A stretch of DNA of 64,000 nt, from assembly GCA_002709235.1 (NCBI GenBank), contig PAQI01000021.1, positions 1 through 64,000 of the forward strand, in the 5' to 3' direction. Every line of letters starts with the position of its first letter. Within the stretch, counting starts at the first letter, position 1. Positions 32,364 through 61,810 of the stretch are shown piece after piece. The DNA is from Hirschia sp. (GTDB lineage Bacteria > Pseudomonadota > Alphaproteobacteria > Caulobacterales > Hyphomonadaceae). A program made the position numbers and the translations under genes. The notes below the pieces were generated by a model, which worked only from the letters and a program-made list of their open reading frames with translations, was not told the origin of the DNA and searched no databases.

Positions 32364-32380
32364 TGGGAGCGATTGTCCTC

Positions 32381-40765: not shown

Positions 40766-40880
40766 CGTCGACACCGACGAAGATTTCTTGACCCTGACAC
40801 GCCATCCGAAGAATCATGGAACGTCTTATCAGACGCGATTCGCTGTAGCGACTGGCTCGGTTCCAGAAAAGGGGGATGTG

Positions 40881-42467: not shown

Positions 42468-42685
42468 GCTGATCGATCAATCAATCTTCTGACGGCTTTC
42501 GCGGCAATCGGGCTGAGCCTGTCTCCACCGCCTTCCAGATAGGCGGCAATGTCCTTGCGCATGCGCGGGTCCCAGAACTTCGCGATATGGTCTGCTGTTT
42601 CTGCAATGGCCGTTTCATCTCCTCGGGCTTGCAGGTTACGCGCAATCTGGTTTGCCATCATGGCCAGCTTGTCGTTCATGCTCAT
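42464..42685 (-). CDS. fdsD: NAD-dependent formate dehydrogenase delta subunit
   Basis: This 73-residue protein matches FdsD: MANQIARNLQARGD, HIAKFWDPRMRKDI and a helical C-terminus (AAKAVRRLI). FdsD is a small subunit needed for assembly or cofactor insertion of the FdsGBA complex. The ATG at 42685 overlaps the fdsA stop (ATGA), and its own stop overlaps the fdhD start. Confidence 0.88.
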   Translation of the reverse strand: MSMNDKLAMMANQIARNLQARGDETAIAETADHIAKFWDPRMRKDIAAYLEGGGDRLSPIAAKAVRRLIDRSA

Positions 42686-47015: not shown

Positions 47016-47437
47016 GACAGACTGCCGATCAACTGGTTCAGCTTTTCTGAATCAAGCCTTGCGTGGACGTCCCCTTGTGGCGTCATGGCTGCCGGTCCGC
47101 CAGAACAAAGGCCCAGGCAATAGACAGGCTCTATCCGGACGCGAGAGCCAGCGGCTTTTTCGGCACCTTCAACCAGCGCCTCGACACCCCGCGCCTTGCA
47201 AGCCTCGGCTCGGCACAGTTTCAACACGGGCTTGCCAGCAGGTTCTGTTCGAAAATCATGATAGAATGAGACGACGCCCCAGACTTCGGCCCGGGTGATG
47301 TTCAGCCCGGCCGCAATCATGCGCATGTGGTAATCCGAGACATATCCGAAGGTGTTTTGAACATCGTGCAGGATCGGCAATAGCGGTCCCTCACAAAGTT
47401 CATGTCGTTTCAGAATGTCTTCCAGAGCTTCCGACAA
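47012..47437 (-). CDS. fdsG: NAD-dependent formate dehydrogenase gamma subunit (NuoE-like)
   Basis: This 141-residue thioredoxin-like [2Fe-2S] protein has the NuoE pattern PLLPILHDVQNTFGYV and the cluster Cys residues in CRAEACKARG and YCLGLCSGGPAAM. It starts with TTG at 47437, six bases after GGGAG, as no in-frame ATG exists near the start. It leads the operon fdsG-fdsB-fdsA-fdsD-fdhD, behind the inverted repeat at 47454-47484. Confidence 0.92.
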   Translation of the reverse strand: MSEALEDILKRHELCEGPLLPILHDVQNTFGYVSDYHMRMIAAGLNITRAEVWGVVSFYHDFRTEPAGKPVLKLCRAEACKARGVEALVEGAEKAAGSRVRIEPVYCLGLCSGGPAAMTPQGDVHARLDSEKLNQLIGSLS

Positions 47438-47541: not shown

Positions 47542-48597
47542 TCAGCTCTTTTCAACCAGGTCCAGGCTCATCCGTTCGCCCGCAGCGATGTCGCGGCTTG
47601 CGCGCTTTCCCAGCACATCGTCCAGATAGCGCGGTGCCAGACCGTGAGCCGGGCGGATGGAACGTAGATTGTCAGATGTGAAGGTGTCGCCTTTTGCAAT
47701 CGGCTTGATCACATAAAGGGAGCGTTTGCCTGATAGCGAGGTACGGGAGATTTCCGGAATCTCCAGCGTGGGGGCACCGACAGCACTGTGAATACGCGCC
47801 AATCCTGTCTTGAAGTCTGCCAGCTCATCCAGAGACATGGAAAAGGCGGCATCCACGGAGACATCGTCGCCGGGCAGCTTGAAGTGCTTTTCGATCATGC
47901 GAGCGCCCAGCGCGGTGGCTGCGTAGCCAGCTTCCGGCCCGAGTGTGTGGTCAGAAAAGCCGGCAGGACAGCCATAGGTTTCTGCAAGCCAGGGGATGGT
48001 CGACAGGTTGACCGCATCAATGGGGGTTGGATAGGCGGACACGCATTTGAGGATCATGAAGCGGGTGTCGGTTTCCCGCAGCACTTCAACAGCAAGATCG
48101 AGGTCTGACCTGTCAGCAAGGCCAGTGGACATGATGACAGGTTTGCCGGTACGGGCGGCGTGCCGGATCAGTCCGATATCAACGATCTCGGGTGATGCGA
48201 TCTTGTAGGCAGGACAATCAAGTTCTTCGAGGAAATCTATGGCGGTGGGATCGAAGGGGGATGCGAAGACAGTCAAGCCGAGGGATTTTGCGTGCTCGAA
48301 AATGGGGCCGATCCATTCCCACGGGGTGTGGGCTTTCTCATAGAGCTTGTAGAGGGTCTTGTAGGACGCCCAGTCGTTTTCGGAGGTTGTGACGCGAAAG
48401 TCTTCCCGGTCGCTGTCCATCGTGATCGTATCCGGTCGATAGACCTGTACCTTCAGGGAATCGGCTCCGGCTTGATGCGCGGCATCCACGAATTGAAGCG
48501 CCGATTCCAGCCGTCCCTGATGATTACCGCTCATCTCCACGCACACATGTGGCGGTGTGTGGGTGTCCGTTTCGAAGGCTTCCATGAGAGTTGTCAT
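47542..48597 (-). CDS. pseI: Pseudaminic acid synthase (NeuB/PseI family)
   Basis: This 351-residue enzyme condenses a 2,4-diacetamido hexose with phosphoenolpyruvate to form a nonulosonic acid. Evidence is the barrel opening CVEMSGNHQGRLESALQ, typical of PseI, with SLKVQVYRPDTITMDSD, the PAYKIASPEIVDIGLI segment, the metal-binding GFSDHTLG and EKHFKLP, and a C-terminal antifreeze-like SAF domain (about 290-350). NeuB or legionaminic acid synthase are alternatives, but the SGNHxG motif and the PseG-like neighbour favour pseudaminic acid. It follows the PseFGH-like fusion after about 20 bases. Confidence 0.85.
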   Translation of the reverse strand: MTTLMEAFETDTHTPPHVCVEMSGNHQGRLESALQFVDAAHQAGADSLKVQVYRPDTITMDSDREDFRVTTSENDWASYKTLYKLYEKAHTPWEWIGPIFEHAKSLGLTVFASPFDPTAIDFLEELDCPAYKIASPEIVDIGLIRHAARTGKPVIMSTGLADRSDLDLAVEVLRETDTRFMILKCVSAYPTPIDAVNLSTIPWLAETYGCPAGFSDHTLGPEAGYAATALGARMIEKHFKLPGDDVSVDAAFSMSLDELADFKTGLARIHSAVGAPTLEIPEISRTSLSGKRSLYVIKPIAKGDTFTSDNLRSIRPAHGLAPRYLDDVLGKRASRDIAAGERMSLDLVEKS

Positions 48598-48617: not shown

Positions 48618-50843
48618 CTAGGCGGCGGGCTTTTCGAAAATCAGGAAACGTTTGTCAGTTCCGGGCCAGAAGGCCTTTGCTGCAGCCTGCGCGGCGGGGC
48701 CCGCTTCGCGAAATCCCATGCGTTTATCAAGGGCGATGCCTGGTTTGTTGGTCGCTTCGATTGTTGCGACCCATATGTGGTCCGGGTGGGTCTGTGCCGT
48801 GCGTTCATGCTGCCATTGCAGAAGGCGCAGTGTTGCTGCGAGAGATGGCTGATCGGTGGCCGGGAACCAGCCGGCGGTCATGTAGTTGCGGCCATCATGT
48901 GAGCGAGGTCTATGCCAGAAATAGGCTTCTGGTTGTCCGTCTGTCTCAATGACAAAGCGCTCGGCATCAGTCTTGAGCCACCAGGCAAGATGTTCGGGCC
49001 AATCAATGATATGGTTGGGGTCGGTCGAGACATTGCGAACGAGCGGTGCATTGCGCGCGGATCTAAAGCGTTCTGCATCTGCAATCGTGCAGGGGCGGAT
49101 ATGAGTTCCGGTGGTGGGCGCATTGGAAGGTTGCGGCACTGGTGAGCCATTCATCAGGTCTGCAAGCGCCTGGGCCACGCGGTCTGCACCTTTACCATCC
49201 AGCGCTTTTGAATATGTCGTGAGAAGGTGTCGCAGAGGCGTGTGTTCTTCATCAGCAAAATTCAACAATCGTTCCACAAAGGATTGGTCCTTGGCTTCTT
49301 CGGCTTCTATGTGCAGGGCATGTCCGAGGTTGAGCCATGTGTCTCTGGGCTCACCTTGCGTGTCGGAAATTGGAAATGAGACCGGAAGCGCACCTTGCAT
49401 GATGGTCTCGTAAAGGGATGTGCTGGCCGGGCCGATGATGAGGTCATGATCCTTCCAGACCGCGCCAGAACGCCAGGTCTCGACCGTGTCATTCTTACCG
49501 ATAGCATTGCGGGTCTTGAGCCAGGAGGCGCTTTCAGGCGTCGGGCACAGCCATGTCAGATCCCAATCACGTTTGGAGGTTACTTGGGTAATTGCGTCGA
49601 TGACTGCCGGAACTTTGTCGAAGCCGCCAGTGCCACCAGCATGGACTAGCACGCGCCCGCGTGGGCGGGCGGGTAATAGGGGGCTGTCTGTGATCATATA
49701 TGCCTCGCCCCCGAGGAAATGCGCTGTGTCTTCTAGATTGGAAGGACGTTTTGCGCCGGGTGTGAAGGTGATTGAGAGCTGTGCGCTTTTGCTGTCACCA
49801 AGGTCGTCAATTGCCGCGACGGTCATGCCAGCGCGGGTCAGATCATCCTCCCAGATGCCACCCACGCGATAGCTGTCGCGGATAACCAGAGACGCCCCGT
49901 CTGCTCTGGCAATCGCGACGGTTTCGGCGGCGTCGGCGGTTTCATCCAGATCTGCTGACAGAAATCGGATGGCGGCGGAAGTTTCGAATGGGAACCCCAT
50001 GGGGCGGGCAGCGGCATCCAGCAATAAGATTGGTCGAAAGCCTTTATTGGCCAGAGCCTTAGCCAGGACATTGGACCGTTTGACATGCCCGACGCCCGAA
50101 CCGGGGAAGAAATCGGCGCGTAGTATGACGGTCTGAGGTGGAGACTGGCGGGTGGTCGATCTGGTCGAAAAGCGCTGCTCGAACAGGGCTTGGGCAAAGG
50201 CGAGATCTTCGGGCTCGTCGATATCGATGGCGCTCAGGGCATCGACTTCCAGCCCAAATGTCCTGGCCGTGAAAGAATGTGACCCTGACAACCACGCCCT
50301 GGTTCGGCCGATCGTGGTCATCCCGGCATCGCGATAGATCGGTGTCAGATCCTGAGTGCGTGTGGTGAGGCTGCTGGGGTCACACATGGATACACGGCCA
50401 GCTTCATCGCATAGGAGCCCACGCTGGGGCGGCGTTTCAAAGCGGCGAAGGGTGAGGACATAGTCAAGGTCAGCATCTTCGGCGAGGCGGTCTGATGCGT
50501 CTCGCAAGAGCTCTGGTGTCAGAAAGACTGCGGTCGCGAAGATCAGGCCGATTGCATCATAGTCGGCTCCCATCTGCTCGTAAGCATGCAGGATCACCGG
50601 GTTCATGGGTGTCATGTCGCCAGATAGTTCTGGAGGACGCATCACGATTTGAGCGCCTGCCCGGCGGGCAACCGTCGCGATCTCGTCATCATCAGTTGAA
50701 ACGACGACAGTTTCGAAGACTTTGCTTGCAAGGGCTGCATCGATCACACGTGCAATGGCTGGACGGCCGCCGAACGGTGCTATGTTCTTGCGCGGTATCC
50801 GCTTGCTTCCGCCACGGGCAGGAATGATGGCAATGGAACGCAT
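48618..50843 (-). CDS. Three-domain fusion: PseF cytidylyltransferase, PseG hydrolase, PseH-like acetyltransferase
   Basis: This 741-residue protein joins three steps of pseudaminic acid activation. Residues 1-228 are a CMP-sugar cytidylyltransferase (PARGGSKRIPRKN at 8-20, AIDIDEPEDLAFAQ near 205). Residues 238-565 match PseG, the UDP-sugar hydrolase, with GSGVGHVKR at 248-256 holding the probable catalytic His253 and with GPASTSLYETIMQGALPV near 471. Residues 580-741 are a GNAT acetyltransferase fold like PseH (HIRPCTIADAERFRSARN; IEATNKPGIALDKRMGF). The ATG at 50843 has AAGGAG twelve bases upstream. PseB and PseC, needed earlier in the pathway, are not in this window. Confidence 0.88.
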   Translation of the reverse strand: MRSIAIIPARGGSKRIPRKNIAPFGGRPAIARVIDAALASKVFETVVVSTDDDEIATVARRAGAQIVMRPPELSGDMTPMNPVILHAYEQMGADYDAIGLIFATAVFLTPELLRDASDRLAEDADLDYVLTLRRFETPPQRGLLCDEAGRVSMCDPSSLTTRTQDLTPIYRDAGMTTIGRTRAWLSGSHSFTARTFGLEVDALSAIDIDEPEDLAFAQALFEQRFSTRSTTRQSPPQTVILRADFFPGSGVGHVKRSNVLAKALANKGFRPILLLDAAARPMGFPFETSAAIRFLSADLDETADAAETVAIARADGASLVIRDSYRVGGIWEDDLTRAGMTVAAIDDLGDSKSAQLSITFTPGAKRPSNLEDTAHFLGGEAYMITDSPLLPARPRGRVLVHAGGTGGFDKVPAVIDAITQVTSKRDWDLTWLCPTPESASWLKTRNAIGKNDTVETWRSGAVWKDHDLIIGPASTSLYETIMQGALPVSFPISDTQGEPRDTWLNLGHALHIEAEEAKDQSFVERLLNFADEEHTPLRHLLTTYSKALDGKGADRVAQALADLMNGSPVPQPSNAPTTGTHIRPCTIADAERFRSARNAPLVRNVSTDPNHIIDWPEHLAWWLKTDAERFVIETDGQPEAYFWHRPRSHDGRNYMTAGWFPATDQPSLAATLRLLQWQHERTAQTHPDHIWVATIEATNKPGIALDKRMGFREAGPAAQAAAKAFWPGTDKRFLIFEKPAA

Positions 50844-50993
50844 ACGCAGATGAAGCTCCTTTTTGTCAGACATGATCAGTGCCACACCTGAAGTTTGGGT
50901 CCGGCGGGACCTCTTGGGGGCATTTGCCCGACTCATGGCTCAATGTTAGACGCTGCATGGTAAAAAATGGATGGATGAGGAGAAGGCCTGACA

Positions 50994-51479
50994 GTGACCA
51001 GCGGTTTTGATCACCCTTCGGCCGCAAAAGACGGCTCAATGTCCCGTGCAGAGATCTCGGCGAAGCTGGATATCACTGACCCCTTCCTGATGATCGACAG
51101 CTTTCGCATGGGAGATGATGGGGCCACCGCTTTCGCGACAAAGGATCTGCAATCAGAAGACTGGTTTTTCGACTGCCACCTTCCCGGTGAGCAGGTGATG
51201 CCCGCGACGCTACAGATTGAAGGCATGCTGCAAACCCTGGTCCTGTTGATTTACGCCGCGAAAGATCATGGCGCGAAGCGTTCCTTTGTGACTGATATCA
51301 ATGCGAAGCTACTGTCTGCCGCCACGCCGGGATTGAGCATCACATATGAGGCGAGCCTGAAATCCTTTCGGCGCGGTATTGCAAAGGGGGAGGTCATCGG
51401 AACATCAGAGGGCAAGGTGCTTTGTCGGGGTGAGTTTGGCTATGCATCACCGCATCTGATGGCGGTGCCTACCCAATGA
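50994..51479 (+). CDS. FabZ-like hotdog dehydratase, paralogue 1
   Basis: This 161-residue hotdog-fold protein resembles 3-hydroxyacyl-ACP dehydratases. It keeps the catalytic His and Glu of FabZ in WFFDCHLPGEQVMPATLQIE and opens with DPFLMIDSF. It shares RRGIxKGxxxGT with the second paralogue at 57092-57556. The start is a GTG with GAGGAGAAGG upstream; an ATG at 51039 is an alternative. It overlaps the MDR reductase gene (ATGA) and is divergent from the pse genes. Confidence 0.8.
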   Translation: MTSGFDHPSAAKDGSMSRAEISAKLDITDPFLMIDSFRMGDDGATAFATKDLQSEDWFFDCHLPGEQVMPATLQIEGMLQTLVLLIYAAKDHGAKRSFVTDINAKLLSAATPGLSITYEASLKSFRRGIAKGEVIGTSEGKVLCRGEFGYASPHLMAVPTQ

Positions 51480-52477
51480 GACAGGATCAGACCTTCAATG
51501 CCTTGGTCGTCAGGAAAGGCCCGGACCGGAGCTTTACACGTGCGATTGAGCAACGAGAGCTGGCCGAGTTGCCTGCAGGTGAAGTGCTGATCCGGGTGCA
51601 TGCTTCCACGATCAATTTCAAGGATCGCATGTCAGCGCATGGCAATCCGGCGATCACACGACGTTTTCCGCATACGCCCGGTGTGGATGCAGCGGGTGTC
51701 GTTGTTTCCAGTGATGTTGAAGAGGTCAAACCGGGCGAGCGGGTCGCGGTCATAAGTCACGCGATGGGGATGAACATGCCGGGCGGGTTCGGGCAGTATG
51801 TTCGTGTACCCGCAGCCTGGGTGATGCCTCTGGAAGATGGATTGTCCTTCGAAGAAGCGATGGCATTTGGTACACCCGGCTATACGGCGGCTTTGGCGGT
51901 AGAAGCGCTTATTGATGCGGGCATTGATCTGGACGGTGCGTCTGTTGTTGTGACCGGTGCTGCGGGCGGTGTAGGGGCGTTGTCGGTGGCGTTTCTGGTG
52001 ACCTTGGGGGCGAAGGTCACGGCTGTGACGGGGCGGACAGGCACGGCAGAAGCCGTAAGGCAGATTGGCGCAGTCGACGTGCTGGACCGGTCGGAGTTTG
52101 ACGATCTCTCCGGGCGCAATCTGTTGGCGCAGGAATTTGATGCCGGAATTGATGTGGCAGGCGGCAATCTGCTTGGAACGCTTATCCGAAAAATGAAAGA
52201 TGGTGGTGCTGTGGCAGCGACCGGCATGGCGGCAGATACGGCCCTGCCGATCAATGTCCTGCCTTTCATCCTGCGGGGAGTGCGTCTTCTGGGGATCAAT
52301 GCCGAGAATACGGACATGACGCGCCGTCGTGCTGTCTGGCGCAAGATGGCGAATGACTGGAAGCCTGCCAATCTTCAAGCGCTTTATCGCGTCATCCAGC
52401 TGGCAGGTCTGCCAGCTGAGCTTGATCCAGACGGTGCAGCAGATGCCTTTGGCCGGGTCGTGGTCGATCTAGGCTGA
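51476..52477 (+). CDS. MDR-family acyl/quinone reductase (YhdH/AcuI-like)
   Basis: This 333-residue medium-chain dehydrogenase/reductase lacks the structural and catalytic zinc Cys sets. It has the NADPH-binding VVVTGAAGGVGALSVAFLVTL (about 155-175), an N-terminal GroES-like fold with ASTINFKDRMSAHG and FPHTPGVDAAG, and LGINAENTDM late on. These match acryloyl-CoA or enoyl reductases of the YhdH group. Next to a FabZ-like dehydratase, an enoyl-reducing step is plausible. Its stop overlaps the convergent transketolase gene by nine bases. Confidence 0.85.
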   Translation: MRQDQTFNALVVRKGPDRSFTRAIEQRELAELPAGEVLIRVHASTINFKDRMSAHGNPAITRRFPHTPGVDAAGVVVSSDVEEVKPGERVAVISHAMGMNMPGGFGQYVRVPAAWVMPLEDGLSFEEAMAFGTPGYTAALAVEALIDAGIDLDGASVVVTGAAGGVGALSVAFLVTLGAKVTAVTGRTGTAEAVRQIGAVDVLDRSEFDDLSGRNLLAQEFDAGIDVAGGNLLGTLIRKMKDGGAVAATGMAADTALPINVLPFILRGVRLLGINAENTDMTRRRAVWRKMANDWKPANLQALYRVIQLAGLPAELDPDGAADAFGRVVVDLG

Positions 52478-53461
52478 GATCGGCATGTCCAGCGAATGCA
52501 TGAAGCTGCCAATGCTCTGCGCGATATTGGGGCCCAGCAGCCCCAGTTCATCCAGCATGTGCTGATACTGACCGGCTTTGACGAACTTGTCCGGCAGACC
52601 GATTGACAGGTGGGGCGGGCGCTCGCGTTTGGGTGCGAGATATTCGGACACCGCGCTGCCGAGGCCACCGATGGTGGAGTGTTCCTCGACGGTGATGACG
52701 GCTCTGGTGCCTTCAAGAGCCTTGTCGAGTGTGGCGGTATCCAGCGGCTTGAGGGTGTGCATGTTCACCACTGTTGCGTCTATTCCCTGAGCGGCCAGTT
52801 CCTTTGCGGCTTCCAGAGATTGATAGACCATGGTTCCGCAGGCGATGATGGCAATGTCGCGGCCTTCGCGCAGGGTGATAGCCTTGCCGAATTCAAAGTC
52901 ATAATCCTCGGTGTAGACAGACGGATTATCAGGGCCTCCGGTGAGGCGGATATACATAGGCCCCTTGAAGCGCGCAGCTGCCTCGACCGTCTTCACGATC
53001 TCCGCACAATCAGCGGGACTGACAACTGTGAGATTGGGGATGGACCGCATGACGGAGACATCCTCTATTCCATAATGGGAGTTGCCGAGCAGACCCATCA
53101 CGATACCGCTACCGATGGCGACGGCTTTGACGTTCAGTTCCATATAGCCAAGGTTCATGCGCACCTGTTCGCTGGCGCGCATGGCAATGAACGGTGCAAA
53201 GGATGTGGCGAAGACATTATAGCCTTCCTTGGCCAGTCCGCCTGCAACACCGATCATGTTCTGTTCGGCGATACCGGTGTTGAGGAACTGGTCCGGATAC
53301 ATTGCCTGGAAGCGTCCAAGACCAGAGGAGTTTCCAAGGTCGGCGGACAGTGCCATCAGGTCAGCATGGTCTGCTGCAGCATCCGTGAGTGCCAGACCGA
53401 AGACACCACGAGAGCCGAGGCGAGACCATTGGCGGGCATTGCGTTTGTTGATTTCCATCAT
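52469..53461 (-). CDS. Transketolase, C-terminal (pyrimidine-binding) subunit
   Basis: This 330-residue protein is the second half of a split transketolase. It holds the thiamine pyrimidine-binding domain with the catalytic Glu66 in NTGIAEQNMIG and a C-terminal domain (VVNMHTLKPLDTATLDKAL). Together with the preceding gene it would form one transketolase active site, moving a two-carbon ketol unit from a ketose phosphate to an aldehyde acceptor. It starts three bases after the N-terminal subunit gene. Split transketolases are common in secondary and surface-sugar pathways; the acceptor here is unknown. Confidence 0.88.
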   Translation of the reverse strand: MMEINKRNARQWSRLGSRGVFGLALTDAAADHADLMALSADLGNSSGLGRFQAMYPDQFLNTGIAEQNMIGVAGGLAKEGYNVFATSFAPFIAMRASEQVRMNLGYMELNVKAVAIGSGIVMGLLGNSHYGIEDVSVMRSIPNLTVVSPADCAEIVKTVEAAARFKGPMYIRLTGGPDNPSVYTEDYDFEFGKAITLREGRDIAIIACGTMVYQSLEAAKELAAQGIDATVVNMHTLKPLDTATLDKALEGTRAVITVEEHSTIGGLGSAVSEYLAPKRERPPHLSIGLPDKFVKAGQYQHMLDELGLLGPNIAQSIGSFMHSLDMPISA

Positions 53462-53464
53462 GAT

Positions 53465-54295
53465 CTAGCCCTCTGCCGTTGCGGGTACGCCGAGACATTC
53501 GAGTGCCTCATCATAAGTTTTCCGGGTGAGACGGTTATGGTGCCAGGCATTGTCGTTTTCCATGAAGGAAATTCCCTTGCCCTTGACGGTGCGAGCGATA
53601 ATCGCCTTTGGCTTTCCGGTCTGGAAACGCTGATCGAAGGCGGCGACGATTTCCGGAACATTGTGCCCATCAATGCTGACGACATCCCAGCCGAACGATG
53701 CAAAACGCTCGGCAATGTTGGAATTATCAATGATCTGGTTGCTTTCGCCATCGCTTTGCAAGCCGTTGTGATCAATGATCGCGGTGAGTGATGAGAGTTT
53801 CAGCTGACCTGCCAGCATGGCGGCCTCCCAGACGGACCCTTCATTGCACTCACCATCGCCCAGATAGATATATGTCTTGAACATCCTGGTCTTCCGGCGT
53901 GCGGCGAGGGCGATACCGATGCCCATCGACAGGCCTTGCCCCAGGCTGCCATTGGATGACTCTATACCAAGGTCCAGATTCATCACGGGGTGTGCAATCA
54001 GGTCACTGCCATTGGCCTTGAAGGTCTTGAAGACCTCTTCGGAAATGATGCCTGCCGCCAGCAGAGCGGGGTAATAGCCCAGCACGCCGTGTCCCTTGCT
54101 GAGAATGAACCGGTCGCGGTCCTCCCAGCGCGGGTCCTTTTTGTCGAACCGCAATATGTGTCCATAGAGGACCGCCATGATGTCGACCATGGAAAGGCCG
54201 CCGCCAAGGTGTGCCGTGACACCGCATTCATAGCTGATGTCGATGATCTTGCGGCGCATGAAAGACGCCATGTTCTCGATCTCTGAGATATTCAT
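53465..54295 (-). CDS. Transketolase, N-terminal (thiamine-diphosphate-binding) subunit
   Basis: This 276-residue protein carries the thiamine diphosphate/metal motif GDGECNEG (146-153) with the matching Asn in IIDHNGLQ (near 177), and SKGHG (66-70), which contacts cofactor and substrate. It ends where full-length transketolases continue into the pyrimidine domain, supplied here by the next gene. It follows the SDR gene by about 12 bases. It is not the housekeeping enzyme by length or context. Confidence 0.88.
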   Translation of the reverse strand: MNISEIENMASFMRRKIIDISYECGVTAHLGGGLSMVDIMAVLYGHILRFDKKDPRWEDRDRFILSKGHGVLGYYPALLAAGIISEEVFKTFKANGSDLIAHPVMNLDLGIESSNGSLGQGLSMGIGIALAARRKTRMFKTYIYLGDGECNEGSVWEAAMLAGQLKLSSLTAIIDHNGLQSDGESNQIIDNSNIAERFASFGWDVVSIDGHNVPEIVAAFDQRFQTGKPKAIIARTVKGKGISFMENDNAWHHNRLTRKTYDEALECLGVPATAEG

Positions 54296-54307
54296 CTACT
54301 TCGTCCT

Positions 54308-55066
54308 TCAGATGATGCCGCCATCCACGCGCAGGATCTGTCCGGTAATGTGAGTGGACAGATCAGAGGCGAGGAACAGGGCCGCATTGGCGATGTCTTC
54401 GGGGGTTGCAACTTTCTTGAGGGCGGAGGACGCGACCAGCTTCTCGACGGCTGTCGGATCCATGTCGTCGAGCATGTCCGTCTTCGTTACGCCGGGAGCG
54501 ATCGCGTTGACGCGTATGCCTTGTGGGCCGAGTTCGGTTGCCATGCTTTCTGTAGCTCTTGTGAATGCAGCCTTGCTGGCGCCATAGGCGAGCGTGCCGG
54601 GGTCGGCGATCATTGCGGCTGTTGAGGCCATATTTATGATCGCGCTGTTTTCGCTCACGCCTTTTTTTGGGCCCATGAGGCGGACCAGTCCCTGGGTGAA
54701 TGCGATCTGTCCGAACAGATTGACCTCAAACACCTCACGAAGATCGGCGAGACGCGTCATCTGGAACAATGCGCCATGCGGCGCTCCTGCATTGTTGACC
54801 AGTATATCAATGCCCTGCGGTGCCGCGGTGCGAATGGATTTGATCGCGCTCTTGATTGAGTCTTCATCTGCCAGGTCGAGCGCGAATGGGGTGATGTTGA
54901 GCTGTTTGGCCCAGGCGTGGAAGTCATCTGTGTTCACGCGGGCGCTTGCGATGACATTTGCACCTTGTGCACAAAAACTCTCCGCGATTGCGCGGCCAAT
55001 GCCGCGGCTGGCACCGGTGATGACCGCGAAGCGACCTTCAAGCAGGGGAGTTGCGCCCAGCGTCAT
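54308..55066 (-). CDS. Short-chain dehydrogenase/reductase (FabG-like)
   Basis: This 252-residue NAD(P)-dependent oxidoreductase has the cofactor motif TGASRGIGRAIAESF (about 15-29), NNAGAPHG, a Ser in INMAST, and the YGASKAAFTRATESM active-site segment with Tyr and Lys. The C-terminal FLASDLSTHITGQILRVDGG is typical of FabG-like enzymes. I chose the ATG at 55066, which overlaps the stop of the upstream small-subunit gene. In this operon it could reduce a keto intermediate on the ACP or a ketose made by the transketolase. Confidence 0.85.
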   Translation of the reverse strand: MTLGATPLLEGRFAVITGASRGIGRAIAESFCAQGANVIASARVNTDDFHAWAKQLNITPFALDLADEDSIKSAIKSIRTAAPQGIDILVNNAGAPHGALFQMTRLADLREVFEVNLFGQIAFTQGLVRLMGPKKGVSENSAIINMASTAAMIADPGTLAYGASKAAFTRATESMATELGPQGIRVNAIAPGVTKTDMLDDMDPTAVEKLVASSALKKVATPEDIANAALFLASDLSTHITGQILRVDGGII

Positions 55067-55491
55067 GGGGTCACCTCCCTGTAAACGGGGCCGCGTTGAT
55101 AGACGGGTTCCAGGATCGACCAATCATCCTCAGCCATCTGATTGCCGACGGGAAAGGGCGGTACGGCACCAGCGGGCAAACAACGCAAGACGCGTGGGTC
55201 TGTGTAGTAATGCCTCAGGCAATGTATGATCATGGCTGTCATCAGCCGCATGTCCTTGCGTTTCGCCTTTTCAATGATTTTCAACCGATCTTCGGAAGAA
55301 AGCGTTACGAAATCTGATTCAAGCAGGTCATGTGCTGTCTGATCGATCAGGGTTGCGACATCGGCGAGGCGTTGCTCGATGCCATCGCGGCTTGTGGGAC
55401 GGGTGATATCCAGAGATGCGCCTGATGGGACCCCAAGCGTTTGGTCGCTGGGTAAAATGGTGTCGAGAAAGGCGTGGATGATGTCTGTCAT
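55063..55491 (-). CDS. Small protein partner of the GMC oxidoreductase (gluconate dehydrogenase subunit 3-like)
   Basis: This 142-residue, mainly helical protein lacks a signal peptide. Its place directly after a GMC oxidoreductase (ATGA overlap) and the pattern FLDTILPSDQTLGVPSGA near the start recall the small subunit 3 of gluconate 2-dehydrogenase and related sugar dehydrogenases, which often carry a Tat leader. I do not see such a leader here. A role in folding or stabilising the flavoprotein is inferred. Confidence 0.55.
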   Translation of the reverse strand: MTDIIHAFLDTILPSDQTLGVPSGASLDITRPTSRDGIEQRLADVATLIDQTAHDLLESDFVTLSSEDRLKIIEKAKRKDMRLMTAMIIHCLRHYYTDPRVLRCLPAGAVPPFPVGNQMAEDDWSILEPVYQRGPVYREVTP

Positions 55492-57086
55492 GAGGCCTGC
55501 CTCAGATAGTCTTGCAGGTTATCGCATATCTTGAGTGTCAGCGCCTGAGCTGTGGCGACGGGGTTTACCGCACCGGATGTTGTGAAGATGCTGCTATCGA
55601 CGATGAACAGATTGTCGATGGCGTGGGCTTGTCCGTTTGGTTTCACGACGGATTTGCGCGGGTCAGTGCCCATGCGTGTTGTGCCCATCAGGTGCCAGCC
55701 TGTGTGGCGGACGGGGGCAAAGGCAGTTGTGACTTTTCCACCCGCAGCTTCGAGAACCTGACGGCTTTTGTCGATGCCATGTGCCAGCATTTTCTTGGTG
55801 TTCTCGGACACCCGATAGTGAACCTTGATGCCTGGCATTCCGGTTGCGTCCTGGGTTTCGGGATCAAGTTCGATGCGGTTTTCCGGTTCTGGAAGGTCTT
55901 CGGTGATGACGGCGATGCCGGCTGTGTGATTGAACAGCTTTGAGAAGGCGGGATGATGATCTGGACCGATTGGCAGGCGGCGGCTCATATAGGCGCTGAC
56001 AGCCGTTTCAGCCGGGGGGGCTCCGCGCAGAATCTGCATGGTGTATCCGCGTTTGAAGTCGCGAGTGGTGTCTGTCTCATAAAATTCCTGAGACAGAATG
56101 CAGCACCCATGTGGGCCCAGACTCGATTGCAGATCCTCATCAAAGACGGCTTCGGTAAAGGCGAGGGGATGGAGCATGAGATTGCGGCCGACCTGATCAT
56201 GATCATTCAGCAAGCCATCGGGAAATGCCGGTGATTTGGAGTTCAGCAACAGGCGCGGCGTGCCGACGCCGCCGCATGCGAGTACGACAATGCGGGCCGG
56301 TTGGAAAACGCGGTTGCCGTCTGGGGTGACGACGTGAACGCCAGAAACGCGCTTGTCAGCATCATGTTCAATTGTCTGGACGGTGTGTCCCGTCAGGACG
56401 GTGACACCCTGTTGCAGGGCGCTCGGCCAATAGGTGACATCCACGCTAGCCTTTGCACCTTGTGAACACCCTGTATTGCAGGGGCCAAGATTGATGCAGG
56501 GTGCGCGACCGCCATGTGAGCGAGTGTTGACGGCGCTGTAGGATGGCCACCAGTGCCAGCCCAAAGTGTTGAATGCCTCGGCGACCCTGCGTCCCATTGG
56601 CCCAAGGGGAACGGGCGGTAACAGCGCATCATATTCAGGATAGGCAGGATCACCCACCAGCCCTGCAACGCCCATCATCTTTTCATTGAGGGTGAAATAG
56701 GGTTCTAGGTCCGCATAGGTGAAGGGCCAGTCATCACCGACACCATCGAGTGTGTGTGTCGCAAAATCCGAAGGGTGCATGCGCGGGAAATGGCCGGAAT
56801 AGAGGATGGTGCTACCGCCAAAGCCGTTGAAATTTGCAATGGAGATGGGCGAGGTGCTGTCATCAATAGGATAATCGCCGGGGCCATTTCGCTGTTGGGG
56901 ATTTGAGCTGGCATCCCCCAGGCGCGACAGTTCCCAGGCGGCTGTTGTTGTGGGGTAGTTGGCCGGATCGGTGCGTTCGCCCTGTTCCAGGCACAGGATC
57001 TTCAGCGAAGGATTGCGACTGAGGCTCCAGGCGGCAGCTGCACCGCTGGCACCAGACCCGACGATGACCACATCGACCGGTTCCAT
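55488..57086 (-). CDS. GMC-family FAD-dependent oxidoreductase
   Basis: This 532-residue flavoprotein has FAD-binding VVIVGSGASGAAAAWSLSR (7-25) and the GMC C-terminus with His in GWHLMGTTRMG and Asn in VNPVATAQAL, the usual catalytic pair. A Cys triad (197, 203, 207) in CINLGPCNTGCSQG resembles the iron-sulphur segment of membrane sugar dehydrogenases of this family. No signal peptide is present. It probably oxidises an alcohol or sugar hydroxyl, passing electrons on rather than to oxygen. It starts a few bases after the second FabZ-like gene. Confidence 0.85.
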   Translation of the reverse strand: MEPVDVVIVGSGASGAAAAWSLSRNPSLKILCLEQGERTDPANYPTTTAAWELSRLGDASSNPQQRNGPGDYPIDDSTSPISIANFNGFGGSTILYSGHFPRMHPSDFATHTLDGVGDDWPFTYADLEPYFTLNEKMMGVAGLVGDPAYPEYDALLPPVPLGPMGRRVAEAFNTLGWHWWPSYSAVNTRSHGGRAPCINLGPCNTGCSQGAKASVDVTYWPSALQQGVTVLTGHTVQTIEHDADKRVSGVHVVTPDGNRVFQPARIVVLACGGVGTPRLLLNSKSPAFPDGLLNDHDQVGRNLMLHPLAFTEAVFDEDLQSSLGPHGCCILSQEFYETDTTRDFKRGYTMQILRGAPPAETAVSAYMSRRLPIGPDHHPAFSKLFNHTAGIAVITEDLPEPENRIELDPETQDATGMPGIKVHYRVSENTKKMLAHGIDKSRQVLEAAGGKVTTAFAPVRHTGWHLMGTTRMGTDPRKSVVKPNGQAHAIDNLFIVDSSIFTTSGAVNPVATAQALTLKICDNLQDYLRQAS

Positions 57087-57091
57087 GGGGC

Positions 57092-57556
57092 TCAGGCCTT
57101 CTTCGGCAGGAAGGTTTCAAGAATTTCCGGAATGGTGATGGTCATTTCAGCTTCGCATACGGTGATGCCTTGCACTGTGCCGACAGCCTTGCCCTTGCAG
57201 ATTCCGCGTCTCCACGAAATGACCTGCGCATCGATATCCAGCCGGTTGCCGGGTTTCACTTCCTGACGGAAGCGAACATGGTGCTCAAGCGCATGTGTGA
57301 CCTTGCCCTTCAGGTCTGGCAGTGTGGTGATTGCCACGGTCAACATCTGCGCCATGGCTTCCAGCTGCAAGGCGCCAGGCATGTTGGGGCCGCCGGGGAA
57401 GTGGACCGGGAAATACCATTCATTGAGTGTGAGGTTCTTGAAGCCGCGTGCATATTTGCCTGGCAGCACGTCTTCGACATGATCGATCATCAGGAAGGGA
57501 TAGCGGTTAGGCTGATATTCCTGCAATTGCTGGCAATCGAGACTGAAACTTTCCAT
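57092..57556 (-). CDS. FabZ-like hotdog dehydratase, paralogue 2
   Basis: This 154-residue protein is closer to FabZ than its paralogue: YPFLMIDHVEDVLPGKYARG and FPVHFPGGPNMPGALQLEAM carry the catalytic His and Glu. It shares SWRRGICKGKAVGT with the SFRRGIAKG segment of paralogue 1. I chose the ATG at 57556; a TTG at 57607 would overlap the ACP stop. It lies 40 bases after the ACP gene, so it may act on an ACP-bound hydroxyacyl group. Confidence 0.85.
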   Translation of the reverse strand: MESFSLDCQQLQEYQPNRYPFLMIDHVEDVLPGKYARGFKNLTLNEWYFPVHFPGGPNMPGALQLEAMAQMLTVAITTLPDLKGKVTHALEHHVRFRQEVKPGNRLDIDAQVISWRRGICKGKAVGTVQGITVCEAEMTITIPEILETFLPKKA

Positions 57557-57596
57557 GAGCAATCCACCGGCGTCATTGAGTGAGCGCGGTTGGTCC

Positions 57597-57836
57597 CTAG
57601 AACTCAACCCCGTATTTCTTCAGCTTTTCCATACCTACCGTGTAGGAACTGAAATCGATGATGTCCTCGGTATCCATGACAATGTCGAAGGTGTCTTCCA
57701 GAGCGGCGACCATCGACATGTGTCCAAGGGAATCCCAGGCAGGAATGCATTGATAGACGAAGTTCTCGTCAAGCACGTTTGGCTCAACCTCGAAGGTTTC
57801 AACAAACACCTGAGCGTATTTTTCCTTGTTCGTCAT
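57597..57836 (-). CDS. Acyl carrier protein
   Basis: This 79-residue acidic helical protein has the phosphopantetheine Ser in WDSLGHMSMV, the key ACP motif. It is not the housekeeping ACP by context, as it lies in an operon with a FabZ-like dehydratase, GMC oxidoreductase, SDR and split transketolase. Acyl intermediates of the pathway are probably tethered to it. It is divergent from luxE, with a CtrA-type box between them. Confidence 0.88.
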   Translation of the reverse strand: MTNKEKYAQVFVETFEVEPNVLDENFVYQCIPAWDSLGHMSMVAALEDTFDIVMDTEDIIDFSSYTVGMEKLKKYGVEF

Positions 57837-57926
57837 GCTCAACCCATTTCTCGTCAGACATTTTCCGCACAACCGTCAGCGGATAGAGGGCATTGATATC
57901 TGCGCCCAGAGCTAGGCTGTGTCGCA

Positions 57927-57951
57927 TTAAAGAAGCGTTAACGATGTTAAC
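57927..57951. promoter_or_regulatory. CtrA-type box between the ACP and LuxE genes
   Basis: TTAA-AGAAGCG-TTAAC (57927-57942) is an exact match to the TTAA-N7-TTAAC site of the alphaproteobacterial cell-cycle regulator CtrA, and a third TTAAC follows at 57947-57951 (GTTAAC-GAT-GTTAAC). It lies about 90 bases from each of the two divergent start codons. CtrA often drives flagellar and envelope genes, so this may couple the cluster to the cell cycle. Confidence 0.5.
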
Positions 57952-58028
57952 CGGGAGGGGGCAGATGATGGGCATGAGGATGTTGGGAACGGGGCTTTAA
58001 TAAAGCGGCAAGAGTTGAAGGCCAGATT

Positions 58029-59198
58029 GTGGTCGGTCGCAAATGTCTGCCGACGAATCCTGAAAAGGACAGCACCTTCGTGGTCACAGTTCCAAAATTC
58101 CAAGAGCAAACAGGCCACTTTGACCACGCGTCCGAGGTGGCGGATCTGCTGGCGGTGGCGCCGTATGAGTTGGACAAGGGGCAGAAAGGGCCGGTTTTTG
58201 ATCGTATCACTCAGGGCCTGACCCGACATCACGCGGCGAACTGTACTGAATACGCGAACATGCTGCGGCTTTTGAAATTCGATGCCGATGAAGAGCATGC
58301 TCTTGAAGATGTTCCGTTTCTGCCAGCGCGCTTGTTCAAGCTGCTGGACCTGAAGAGCGTTGCGCCCGATGCCGTACACAGGGTGCTGACATCTTCGGGA
58401 ACCGGTGGGCAACCTTCTCGCATCAGTCTTGATGCGCCGACGGCTGCGCTTCAGACCCGTGTTCTGACGCGGATCGTGGGTGATTTTCTTGGCAAGTCAC
58501 GTCTTCCGATGCTGGTCATTGATGCGCCATCCACGATCAGGGACCGTACGCGCTTTAATGCACGCGCTGCGGGGATCATGGGCTTTTCGATGTTTGGTCG
58601 AAACATCACTTATGCCCTGAACGATGATATGAGCCTCGATGTGGATGGGGTGGTGGCATTTCTGGAGCGTCATGGTCAGGCTCCATTCTTCATGTTCGGG
58701 TTCACCTTCATGGTCTACCAACATTTGCTGGGGGCAGGTGCCGGGCGTGTGAGGGGCCTGGAAAACGGCATTCTCATCCATGGCGGTGGCTGGAAGAAAC
58801 TGGTTGATCTTGCGATCGACAATGAAGCTTTCAAGCAGCGCCTCAAGGATGAAACCGGGCTTGGCCGCGTGCACAATTACTATGGGCTTGTTGAGCAGAC
58901 AGGCTCCATCTTCATGGAATGTGAAGCCGGGCACATGCACTGTTCGAACTTTTCGGATGTGATGATCCGTGATGCTGACTTTCAACTTTGTCCGAATGGT
59001 GAGCGTGGGCTGATCGAGCTGGTTTCGCTTCTGCCCGGTAGCTATCCCGGGCATGTGCTTTTGACTGAAGATGAAGGCGCGGTGATCGGTGAGGACGATT
59101 GTTCCTGTGGCCGAAAAGGCAAGTATTTTCAGGTTTATGGGCGAGTTGCCAAGGCCGAAGTGAGGGGATGCAGCGATGCCTATGCTTCAGCCAGTTGA
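58029..59198 (+). CDS. LuxE-like acyl-protein synthetase
   Basis: This 389-residue member of the LuxE family activates an acyl group with ATP and transfers it to a Cys for reduction by LuxC. Family segments are LTSSGTGGQPSRISLD, GGGWKKLVD and NYYGLVEQTGSIFMEC. The C-terminal VRGCSDAYA places Cys381 nine residues from the end, like the acylated Cys of bioluminescence LuxE. GTG starts it, eight bases after GAAGG. No luxAB or luxD is nearby, so light emission is not implied. It overlaps the luxC-like start by 23 bases. Confidence 0.85.
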   Translation: MVGRKCLPTNPEKDSTFVVTVPKFQEQTGHFDHASEVADLLAVAPYELDKGQKGPVFDRITQGLTRHHAANCTEYANMLRLLKFDADEEHALEDVPFLPARLFKLLDLKSVAPDAVHRVLTSSGTGGQPSRISLDAPTAALQTRVLTRIVGDFLGKSRLPMLVIDAPSTIRDRTRFNARAAGIMGFSMFGRNITYALNDDMSLDVDGVVAFLERHGQAPFFMFGFTFMVYQHLLGAGAGRVRGLENGILIHGGGWKKLVDLAIDNEAFKQRLKDETGLGRVHNYYGLVEQTGSIFMECEAGHMHCSNFSDVMIRDADFQLCPNGERGLIELVSLLPGSYPGHVLLTEDEGAVIGEDDCSCGRKGKYFQVYGRVAKAEVRGCSDAYASAS

Positions 59199-60402
59199 AC
59201 ATTCCGAGTCAGGTTCGGGGCCGATATTTCTGCTCGGAAATGAGCTAGGTCAGGTACGACCGCGAGTGCCCTTTGATGCGCAGGTCCTTGGATTGCTGGC
59301 CGAACTTTCCGCTCGCTTGCGAAAGCATGCAGAGGCGCGGTCCATGCCGGATGTGCAGACATTCGCGTTCTGGTGTCGCAAGGCCAATCTGCAGAAACTG
59401 AAAGCGGCGCATGATGATCACAAGGCGCGTCTTGGCCTTGGGCTGGTTTTTCATGTGGCGCCGGGAAATGTGCCGATCAATTTTGCGTTCTCTCTGGCGT
59501 TTGGGTTGTTGGCCGGAAACACCAATGTCGTGCGTGTGCCATCGCGTCAGATGGCGCAGGTGGATGTTGTCCTCTCGGTGCTGGGCGATCTGCTGGCCGA
59601 GCCTGATTTTGCGTCGCTTGCCGAAATGATCGCATTGGTTCGCTATCCGGCAGGTGATGCGTTCACGGCTGATATTTCTGCACGCGCGAATGGGCGGGTG
59701 ATCTGGGGTGGCGATGAGACAGTCGCTGAAATTCGCAAGCTGCCATTGCCACCGCGTGCGCGTGAGGTGACTTTCGCGGATCGCTATTCCTTCTGCGTCA
59801 TGGATGCAGCTGCGATGCTGGCCGCCGATGACAAGGCATTGGGACGTCTAGCGGAAGGCTTTTACAACGACACCTATCTGATGGATCAGAATGCATGTTC
59901 ATCGCCGCATCTGGTAGTCTGGAAGGGCGCGGGAAAACTGGCGAGTGTGGCGCGCAAACGGTTCTGGGATCGCCTCCAACCAATTGTCGGTGATAGATAT
60001 CCCATCCCGGCTGTGAATGCGGTGGACAAATACACTGATCTTCTGGTGGAAGCGGCTTCAGATGATGGTGCAATCTTGAATATCAACCGCTGGCGCAATG
60101 ACATCCATACGGTTGAGTTGTCTTGCTTGCCGGATGATCTGGAGACACTGCGTGGCCGGTTTGGACTGTTTCACGAATTCACCACTATGGCTCTTTCGGA
60201 TCTGGTTCCGCTGATCAATGGGCGTTTCCAGACACTGACCTATTATGGCATCGACAAAGCCGAATTGCAGGATTTTATCATAGGTAATGGCCTGACCGGA
60301 ATAGACCGCGCTGTACCGATAGGGCAGGCGCTTGATATGGATACGCTCTGGGACGGCTATGACCTGATCCACACCCTCTCGCGGATCATTGATCTGCGAT
60401 GA
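59176..60402 (+). CDS. LuxC-like acyl reductase
   Basis: This 408-residue protein matches LuxC, which reduces a LuxE- or CoA-bound acyl group to an aldehyde with NADPH. Evidence is VFHVAPGNVPINFAFSLAFG (about 91-110), VIWGGDETVAEIRKLPLPPR and the catalytic Cys241 in DQNACSSPHLV. It overlaps luxE and ends in a 17-base convergent overlap with the AMP-dependent ligase. The aldehyde could be the acceptor for the split transketolase; that is inference. Confidence 0.85.
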   Translation: MPMLQPVEHSESGSGPIFLLGNELGQVRPRVPFDAQVLGLLAELSARLRKHAEARSMPDVQTFAFWCRKANLQKLKAAHDDHKARLGLGLVFHVAPGNVPINFAFSLAFGLLAGNTNVVRVPSRQMAQVDVVLSVLGDLLAEPDFASLAEMIALVRYPAGDAFTADISARANGRVIWGGDETVAEIRKLPLPPRAREVTFADRYSFCVMDAAAMLAADDKALGRLAEGFYNDTYLMDQNACSSPHLVVWKGAGKLASVARKRFWDRLQPIVGDRYPIPAVNAVDKYTDLLVEAASDDGAILNINRWRNDIHTVELSCLPDDLETLRGRFGLFHEFTTMALSDLVPLINGRFQTLTYYGIDKAELQDFIIGNGLTGIDRAVPIGQALDMDTLWDGYDLIHTLSRIIDLR

Positions 60403-61810
60403 GCTTTTGCAGCGCCTGATAGTCGGTCTTGCCTGAATCGAGGCGTGGTATCTGGTCAATTTCGACAATGCGAAAACTGTTTGGATTCAGGCTGATCTGT
60501 TCGATGAGCAGGGATTTGACAGCAGCAGGGTCCGTGCCTGCTGGAATGAACACGCTCAGCATGTTGTCCACGCCGCCACAGGCGCAATCATGGCCGGCCT
60601 TTTTGAGGATCTGTTCGGTCTCATCAAGATTGATCCGATGCCCGACGATCTTCAAAAAGCGCTTCTTGCGGCCGACAATGGTGAAATATCCATCTACGTC
60701 GCGCGAGGCGATATCGCCGGTGAAAAGCTGTCCCTGATTGTCATCGCCGCGCGACAGATCCTTCCAGCTTTCAGCATAGCCCAATGAGACATTGGGGCCT
60801 TCATAGACAAGCTCTCCTGGTATTTCAGGGGCTTGTACCGGATGGCCCTGATCATCTGCCAGCCATAGGTTTCCGCCCGGAATGGCGGTGCCGATACTGC
60901 CGGCCTTTTCTTCTGCCTTTTCCCAGGCAAGGTATGACATGCGTGCTGTTGCTTCTGTCTGACCATACATGGTGACGAAACGCATGCCCTTGTCCTTGCA
61001 GATGTCGATCATCTTTCTGGCGACATCATCTGACAGTTTCCCGCCCGCTTGAGTAAGCGTCTTGAGATGAGGGAGGTCCATCCGCCCGAAGCGCAGTTTC
61101 AGCAGGATTTCGTAGATGAAAGGCACGCCGCCAAAACTTGTTGCTTCAAGTTCCTTGAGCGCTTTCCAGAATACAGGGCTGACCAATGATGCCTCGTTGG
61201 TGATCAGCGAGGCACCTGCGAGCAGATGGCTGTGTATGATCGATAGGCCATAAGTGTAGCTCATGGGCATGGTCATGATTGCGCGGTCGATGGATGTGAT
61301 GCCGAGATAATCGATGATGGAAAGCGCATTGCTGGTCACATTGTCATAGGACAGGCGGACAAAGGAACGACTGCCGGTCGATCCGGATGTCGTCAGCAAG
61401 AGACAGAGATCTTCATGGATCGGAAAATCTGCTGCATGTCCGGTCGGTGTGAGCGCATATTCGCTGCTGGTGTCGTCCTGCGCATAGACCAGGTGAGGTT
61501 GGAACGCATCGATGATGGATTGTCGCTGTTCGAGAGGCAGGCTGTGATGAACCAGCATGATTGCCGCGCCCGCCCTTGAAAGGCCGATATATCCGGCCAG
61601 ACAGTCGGGATCATTGCGGCAGACAATCATGACCAAACAACGCCCTTTCAATTGAGCACCGATTTTATCTGCGCGCATCAGAAGCTGTTCATAGGTGAGC
61701 ATCTTCCCGTCCTCATCCAGCACAGCCACCTGAGAGCCGAACCGATCAAGGTGATCAAACGGCCGGGAAAGTGGGCGATCTTGTGAGGATGGGATTCGGG
61801 ACATGGGCAT
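60386..61810 (-). CDS. AMP-dependent acyl/aryl ligase
   Basis: This 474-residue adenylating enzyme has the ANL superfamily fold: P-loop TTSGSTGSRSFVRLSY (usual consensus TSGSTGxPKG, so the Lys is absent), MYGQTEATARMS, LFTGDIASRDVDGYFTIVGR and the catalytic C-terminal Lys in LDSGKTDYQAL. It would activate a carboxylic acid for loading on ACP or CoA. A second start ATG at 61804 is possible. It lies convergent with luxC and divergent from glgP. Confidence 0.85.
   Translation of the reverse strand: MPMSRIPSSQDRPLSRPFDHLDRFGSQVAVLDEDGKMLTYEQLLMRADKIGAQLKGRCLVMIVCRNDPDCLAGYIGLSRAGAAIMLVHHSLPLEQRQSIIDAFQPHLVYAQDDTSSEYALTPTGHAADFPIHEDLCLLLTTSGSTGSRSFVRLSYDNVTSNALSIIDYLGITSIDRAIMTMPMSYTYGLSIIHSHLLAGASLITNEASLVSPVFWKALKELEATSFGGVPFIYEILLKLRFGRMDLPHLKTLTQAGGKLSDDVARKMIDICKDKGMRFVTMYGQTEATARMSYLAWEKAEEKAGSIGTAIPGGNLWLADDQGHPVQAPEIPGELVYEGPNVSLGYAESWKDLSRGDDNQGQLFTGDIASRDVDGYFTIVGRKKRFLKIVGHRINLDETEQILKKAGHDCACGGVDNMLSVFIPAGTDPAAVKSLLIEQISLNPNSFRIVEIDQIPRLDSGKTDYQALQKLIADQ

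Follow-up and report, generated by a model that had tools for sequence, protein, structure and literature searches.

The DNA analysed here (the window) is a stretch of 64,000 bases, positions 1-64000 of contig C21 (258,642 bases), from the 3.8-Mb genome of a Hirschia sp. The system in question is a gene cluster at 50994-61810 combining an acyl carrier protein (ACP), LuxE- and LuxC-like proteins, an AMP-forming ligase and a two-subunit (split) transketolase. An earlier note on the window had described such a gene set, and all the genes that it named were confirmed at the same coordinates by open reading frames (ORFs) together with Pfam and NCBIfam models. The cluster genes and the two adjoining genes are listed below with strand and model scores; TKn and TKc stand for the two transketolase subunits, SDR and MDR for short-chain and medium-chain dehydrogenase/reductase, and ThDP for thiamine diphosphate.

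47542..48597, minus strand: PseI, pseudaminic acid synthase (TIGR03586, 405.7 bits, cut-off 340.25)
48618..50936, minus strand: PseF-PseG-PseH fusion, 772 aa (TIGR03584 PseF, 218.1 bits, cut-off 205.7)
50994..51479, plus strand: FabA/FabZ-like hot-dog dehydratase A (PF07977, 56.1 bits)
51476..52477, plus strand: MDR enoyl-type reductase of the YhdH/AcuI subfamily, acrylyl-CoA-reductase type (TIGR02823, 352.7 bits, cut-off 297.25)
52469..53461, minus strand: TKc, pyrimidine/C-terminal subunit of the split transketolase (PF02779, 113.3 bits; PF02780, 109.8 bits)
53465..54295, minus strand: TKn, ThDP-binding N-terminal subunit of the split transketolase (PF00456, 151.2 bits)
54308..55123, minus strand: SDR, FabG-like reductase (PF13561, 191.6 bits)
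55063..55491, minus strand: 142-aa ORF, putative GMC partner (PF13618, 15.4 bits, below the cut-off of 23.4)
55488..57086, minus strand: GMC oxidoreductase (PF05199, 93.5 bits; PF00732, 64.1 bits)
57092..57607, minus strand: FabZ-like dehydratase (PF07977, 82.4 bits; NF000582, 118.8 bits, cut-off 113)
57597..57872, minus strand: ACP (PF00550, 16.0 bits, below the cut-off of 20.8; W-D-S-x-G-H-M site)
58029..59198, plus strand: LuxE-like acyl-protein synthetase (PF04443, 172.9 bits; PDB 7xc6 LuxE chain, E 1.4e-8)
59176..60402, plus strand: LuxC-like acyl reductase (PF05893, 93.1 bits)
60386..61810, minus strand: AMP-forming ligase, presumably an acid-ACP ligase (PF00501, 158.1 bits)

The cluster genes form four strand blocks. 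Hot-dog A and the MDR make up the first (plus strand, 50994-52477). The second runs on the minus strand from 57872 down to 52469, in the order ACP, FabZ, GMC, 142-aa ORF, SDR, TKn and TKc. The overlapping LuxE and LuxC genes are the third (plus strand, 58029-60402) and the ligase is the fourth (minus strand, 61810 down to 60386). The PseF-PseG-PseH fusion and PseI adjoin the cluster on its left, both on the minus strand, and the outer flanks hold a formate-dehydrogenase-type operon to the left and glycogen phosphorylase with more glycogen genes to the right.

Although the ACP models match weakly, the named residues of the W-D-S-x-G-H-M phosphopantetheine-type site are at least 90% conserved across the window protein and 67 homologues. 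Likewise, C241 of LuxC is at least 90% conserved across the window protein and 80 homologues. A sequence search of the PDB with LuxC gave no match at E 0.1. LuxE and LuxC score far under the cut-offs of the bioluminescence equivalogs (59 of 550 bits and 24.4 of 750 bits, respectively), which argues against the long-chain acyl aldehyde of the earlier note; a small diacid would be a simpler substrate. The 142-aa ORF was missing from that note. The model used on it, PF13618, describes subunit 3 of gluconate 2-dehydrogenase; its homologues adjoin a GMC gene in four of the loci surveyed below, and an AlphaFold2 model built from five sequences had a mean pLDDT of 73.5, and no PDB structure matched it at E 0.001 or better.

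Related loci were collected by a LuxC scan, of which the best 80 of 162 confirmed places were kept, ranked by similarity to the window LuxC (loci L001-L008 were excluded from the ORF set, and L009 and L010 from clustering). Presence of a feature was scored by bit thresholds, with more than 150 bits for transketolase rows, and contigs shorter than 20 kb can miss genes. ACP, ligase, LuxE and LuxC occur together in 63 of the 80 loci, and in 41 of the 46 that span 20 kb or more. A split transketolase is found in 42 loci, and 37 loci, spread across many phyla, have all five; in the window all five are co-localised. The set, whose co-occurrence the earlier note had proposed to survey, is a recurring module and goes beyond chance. 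A ligase homologue was seen in 70 loci and an SDR in 51, among them 39 of the 42 with transketolase. Amino-sugar or glycan genes accompany 57 of the 80 loci, which supports the suspected link to a glycan. A GNAT or PglD-type acyltransferase is present in 34 loci, and in 13 loci a GNAT gene lies between ligase and LuxE. Same-strand ACP or ligase genes stand within 3 kb of the transketolase in 29 of the 42 transketolase loci. LuxE and LuxC form a single chain in five loci (L013, L018, L022, L043, L048), as do SDR and TKn in one (L050); because they are fused there, the partners of each pair plausibly act together.

The accessory genes are rarer. GMC and the 142-aa ORF occur together in four of the 80 loci, joined by FabZ and transketolase in three, and hot-dog A with the MDR in two. 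Rhizobium anhuiense pRA_T24_2 and relative G045 carry the core plus GMC, FabZ, SDR and transketolase; the sequence stretches retrieved for Deinococcus, Ponticoccus and Nonomuraea carry the core and an SDR, and no transketolase. The window version, having two hot-dog proteins, the MDR, the GMC and the pse fusion, is an elaborate variant of a known, undeciphered gene set. Two loci, L078 and L090, have two TKn-TKc pairs each.

No ketosynthase or LuxD-type acyltransferase model matched any of the 14 proteins scanned with Pfam and NCBIfam. The ketosynthase model PF00109 matches seven places in the genome, none of them on contig C21, and PF08541, for ketoacyl-ACP synthase III (KASIII), matches two, one on contig C3 and the other about 100 kb off on the same contig (C21:161796). 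The earlier observation that the cluster has no ketosynthase thus holds for its immediate surroundings too, and the cluster is not a type II fatty acid or polyketide synthase in the sense of having a ketosynthase within it. This is a trait of the window and no rule of the family, as KASIII-like genes occur in 19 of the 80 LuxC loci, 13 of those 19 with transketolase. Examples of such genes near related clusters are L018, L037, L051 and L075, and six loci have two copies.

Transketolase residues were numbered by alignment to E. coli TktA. The window TKn keeps H26, H66, H100 and H261, and the window TKc keeps E411 and H473, so the two subunits have the ThDP-binding and catalytic residues of the transketolase superfamily. 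Position 461 of TKc is a glycine and position 469 a leucine, and the pair H461 and D469 of a canonical sugar-phosphate transketolase is therefore missing. We take H461 to be a phosphate contact and D469 a contact to a substrate hydroxyl, with D469 variants presumably taking non-hydroxylated aldehydes. Among the LuxC-linked TKc sequences, the window included, E411 and H473 are kept in 45 of 45, and H461 or D469 in none. Control transketolases were sought in the genomes of 14 of the 80 loci, and nine split and ten full-length ones of the matches there were used, together with TktA of E. coli and the enzyme of the window genome itself. Both H461 and D469 are kept in all 12 full-length controls, and the nine other split transketolases from LuxC-bearing genomes keep H461 in five cases and D469 in six. 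A quick tree places the LuxC-linked TKc in one group (SH-aLRT 97) apart from the nine other split and 12 full-length sequences; this group covers about a dozen phylum labels, mostly metagenome bins.

Alphaproteobacterial TKc relatives were surveyed in 385 genomes, 84 of which had matches at E 1e-40, and the top 20 places outside the window's own genome were retrieved. One of them (L150) is a whole module and another (L151) a contig of 7.5 kb that holds SDR and NeuB; the other 18 have no LuxC, LuxE or ACP nearby. Those 18 keep H461 in ten cases and D469 in six. Loss of the two residues as a mark of LuxC linkage is weakened by these sequences, since split transketolases without LuxC lose them too, and the change therefore marks a non-canonical substrate and not LuxC linkage as such. 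Six of the loci (L155, L156, L158, L159, L166, L167) combine a split transketolase with an SDR and a NeuB match and have no LuxC. Their H473 region reads GGSAQ, the histidine being replaced, and they belong to a different transketolase group.

The genome has the genes for pseudaminic acid (Pse). PseI and PseF, adjoining the cluster, and PseB and PseC, on contig C5, all score over their NCBIfam cut-offs. The PseG part of the fusion reaches 54.7 bits against a cut-off of 153.55, and the PseH models give no match. The C-terminal 183 aa of the fusion show weak similarity to GNAT structures (best E 0.0088), so PseH is a putative name. Four flagellin genes over cut-off lie on another contig, C40, and about 3 kb from them is a 591-aa TPR protein. 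By its size, TPR repeats and position near flagellins it appears to resemble FlmG, described in the available text of the source as a TPR flagellin glycosyltransferase of 596 residues (PMC7591256); its C-terminal part has no PDB sequence match. No Maf flagellin transferase (PF01973) was found in the genome.

The reading that we favour, with a probability of roughly 40%, is that the cluster supplies the acyl donor for a pseudaminic acid glycan, probably on flagellin, and that its product probably decorates a surface or flagellar sugar as a small acyl group of an unusual kind. The AMP-forming ligase would load a small acid, most simply a diacid (for instance malonate, succinate or malate), onto the dedicated ACP. 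LuxE would then adenylate the free distal carboxylate and pass it on to LuxC, for reduction to a carrier-bound semialdehyde. Where the cluster includes the two-subunit transketolase, this enzyme could move a two-carbon ketol from a ketose to the semialdehyde, so that the chain would lengthen from its distal end with no need of a ketosynthase and become a dihydroxy-keto chain. SDR, hot-dog dehydratases, MDR and GMC would trim it by reduction, dehydration, enoyl reduction and alcohol oxidation, presumably in some such order. Finally an N-acyltransferase, perhaps the PseH-like part of the fusion, would move the acyl group from ACP to the amino sugar. At loci without transketolase the SDR may reduce the aldehyde to give an omega-hydroxyacyl-ACP.

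The diacid is suggested by the gene content. Because LuxC consumes its carboxylate, an ACP-bound product needs a second carboxyl, unless oxidation restores one; and since ligase/ACP and LuxE/LuxC are retained together, we infer a diacid activated at both ends as the simplest case. Ketol transfer to an aldehyde is chemically plausible by the precedent of AziC5/C6 in azinomycin biosynthesis; in the scheme proposed here the transketolase would have to act on a carrier-bound aldehyde. The ketol step proposed in the earlier note may therefore stand in its chemistry, its long-chain form being less likely. The wider proposal is more doubtful: that reverse, far-end elongation of an ACP-held acid by LuxE-LuxC reduction and a dedicated transketolase makes hydroxylated glycan caps across many phyla. 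Should the genes make a short acyl donor from a diacid by LuxE-LuxC reduction and, where transketolase is present, ketol extension, this would be a new logic of carrier-protein chain elongation that dispenses with a ketosynthase, and the 'LuxE/LuxC/transketolase' genes of non-luminous bacteria would gain a function.

A short acyl donor could also explain glycan masses that have stayed unassigned. According to the available parts of the published accounts, the flagellin of Aeromonas piscicola AH-3, a strain whose group II island has ACP, SDR, ligase, LuxE and LuxC, bears both a 376.14-Da derivative of Pse and an unassigned group of 102 Da, and an fgi-1 mutant retains the 376-Da sugar. By mass computation C4H6O3 comes to 102.03, and exchanging one acetyl of Pse5Ac7Ac for it gives 376.148. 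A dihydroxybutyryl group, as a malate-based core would make, fits both masses. A. hydrophila AH-1 is reported to have a 403-Da Pse-like glycan, and the same group cites it as the single-sugar type (group I/III, with the smaller island).

Several observations weigh against this reading. O-methylglyceryl fits C4H6O3 equally well, the AH-3 island is without transketolase in the available part of its published account, and neither a luxC nor an orf1-5 mutant of AH-3 was found in the parts of the accounts available. An AH-1 figure legend in the available material marks a '376 Da sugar', so the 376-Da form may not need luxC if AH-1 is without luxC. The PseH-like part appears too divergent to be confirmed by its sequence. 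Flagellin-like genes were detected in one of the 80 LuxC loci (the query being this genome's flagellins), and the listed neighbours of the Ponticoccus locus include no sugar gene. KASIII-like genes stand in 13 of the 42 transketolase loci, with Cys, His and Asn apparently intact in 23, 24 and 25 of 25 sequences, respectively. The substrate-site changes are also seen elsewhere: H461 is missing from four and D469 from three of the nine other split transketolases in LuxC-bearing genomes, and they are lost in eight and 12, respectively, of the 18 LuxC-less alphaproteobacterial sequences. On the LuxC tree, transketolase gain or loss takes about 28 changes, no fewer than with shuffled labels, in a count that scores short contigs as lacking the gene. 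The transketolase is therefore an exchangeable addition, and it may serve a neighbouring sugar step. The description of the cluster as built around it is not supported, as 18 of the 46 LuxC loci that span 20 kb or more lack it.

That gain and loss is what one would expect if transketolase and SDR made a branched-chain or chain-extended sugar from a keto-sugar, with ligase, ACP, LuxE and LuxC being a separate acyl path to the same glycan. The LuxC-less alphaproteobacterial split transketolase loci agree with such a division, six of them having SDR and NeuB matches inside the same 15-20 kb, and so does a split transketolase that stands together with DegT aminotransferases in an exopolysaccharide cluster of Actinoplanes, the available main text of that paper containing neither LuxE nor 'acyl carrier' nor 'acyl-CoA reductase'. 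We nevertheless consider it unlikely, as the LuxC-linked transketolases are a group of their own, mostly have a same-strand ACP or ligase close by (the 29 of 42 loci above), and in the window stand in a one-strand row with ACP, FabZ, GMC and SDR. Rather improbable in our view is the fatty-acid alternative, by which a fatty acid or aldehyde is made or channelled into a lipid-like glycan group and the transketolase adds a ketol to a fatty aldehyde. It was the idea of the earlier note and, as a 'liposugar', of De Maayer and Cowan; the annotation of LuxE, LuxC, FabG, FabZ and ACP speaks for it, and a liposugar has been proposed for enterobacterial and Aeromonas islands in the available texts (PMC4875605, PMC7874193). 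The 14 proteins scanned include no match to a ketosynthase or LuxD-type acyltransferase model, LuxE and LuxC fall far under the bioluminescence equivalogs, and the groups of AH-3 described as unknown in the available account are only the 102-Da group and a 376-Da sugar.

The remaining two alternatives concern the ThDP chemistry. LuxC might pair with either of two ThDP carboligases, an acetolactate-synthase-like (ALS-like) enzyme adding an acetyl-type two-carbon unit, not a ketol, where transketolase is absent. The ALS-like enzyme occurs in eight of the 80 loci, none of the 42 with transketolase versus eight of the 38 without (Fisher p 0.0017), and FabZ is present in all eight. We regard this pairing as very improbable, because in eight of eight loci (L012, L021, L030, L041, L052, L076, L077, L086) the enzyme lies at most 28 bases from a same-strand NeuB frame and may belong to nonulosonate synthesis, and because the association loses significance over tree-independent pairs (median p 0.125). 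The ALS-like enzyme as a stand-in for transketolase is thus suggestive, but confounded with NeuB. Hardly credible is a transfer in which the transketolase loads a two-carbon glycolyl unit from a ketose onto the ACP, like the hydroxyethyl transfer of NapB/NapD, with LuxC and LuxE acting on the product. A split transketolase in one row with an ACP gene would suit it. The NapB/NapD-like transfer uses a lipoyl/E2-type domain; none was reported for the cluster proteins in the Pfam and NCBIfam scans, and the ligase and LuxE would be left unexplained.

The cluster is likely, not proven, to be an acquired island. LuxC is present in two of 61 genomes, one being the window's own, so that 59 of the 60 relatives sampled lack it; in 20 relatives the PseF-PseG-PseH fusion has only partial matches or none. 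The G+C content of the cluster, on the other hand, is close to that of its flanks. To the left, 41667-47437 holds FdhD and a three-subunit molybdopterin/51K/2Fe-2S operon of the formate dehydrogenase type, 35155-41660 has RND efflux genes (HlyD-like, AcrB-like, OEP) followed by an IclR-type regulator, and within 32354-34882 an SBP_bac_11 protein and an ABC-TOBE ATPase are probably for molybdate uptake. Directly right of the cluster, at 62035-64000 and in locus L010, lie glycogen phosphorylase, GlgB, a GlgC-like nucleotidyltransferase and a CBM48/alpha-amylase protein.

That flagellar and flagellin-glycosylation clusters contain genes labelled 'fatty acid synthesis' has been on record from 2015-2016 at the latest, and no assigned product was found. 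The gene content of the luxC module is already in print, undeciphered, with transketolase in Dickeya zeae and without it in enterobacteria and Aeromonas. The statement of the earlier note that no described pathway has this set must be narrowed accordingly; it stands for biochemistry, none being found in the literature searched, which left out most subscription papers. Four further papers (PMC13317340, PMC4481668, PMC11103875, PMC11766843) have no mention of the module for the terms sought. By the available text, D. zeae EC1 and EC2 carry luxC, luxE, fadD, tktA, tktB, two fabG, acpP and maa inside the flagellar cluster (PMC4522980, PMC7575072), and the EC1 authors thought the luxC/tkt gene set unlikely to be tied to flagellar biogenesis (PMC4522980). 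Shared with our window are LuxC, LuxE, the ligase, two transketolase genes, SDRs and ACP, with an acyltransferase, beside flagellin genes; the set as listed there is without GMC, FabZ, second hot-dog, MDR and pse genes and has the aminotransferase VioA.

De Maayer and Cowan counted LuxE, LuxC, ACP, CaiC and FabG in enterobacterial flagellin islands and suggested a liposugar (PMC4875605, in the text available). Those islands share LuxE, LuxC, ACP, a CaiC-type ligase and FabG with the window, and FabZ in one strain; the word transketolase occurs nowhere in that paper. The Aeromonas group II islands have ACP, SDR, ligase, LuxE and LuxC between pse genes (PMC7874193, likewise in part) and differ by their many glycosyltransferases and by the word transketolase being nowhere in the paper. 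R. anhuiense pRA_T24_2 shares TKn, TKc, ACP, ligase, LuxE, LuxC, SDR, GMC and FabZ, whereas it has DegT and a glycosyltransferase and no pse gene listed. The LuxCDE fatty-acid reductase of bioluminescence shares the LuxE-LuxC pairing and the conserved LuxC cysteine; it differs in that the equivalog cut-offs are missed and neither a luciferase nor a LuxD model matches among the 14 proteins scanned. In azinomycin biosynthesis, AziC5/C6 carry out a transketolase-type two-carbon extension of a glutamate-derived aldehyde (PMC9570651, available in part). As proposed here, a transketolase adds two carbons to an aldehyde made by carboxylate reduction; there the aldehyde arises via a kinase and reductase on N-acetylglutamate, and LuxE and LuxC are absent from the available account. 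Groups of the 4-hydroxybutyramido and 2-hydroxyglutaryl type occur on the sugars of marine bacteria according to the available part of a review (PMC3210612).

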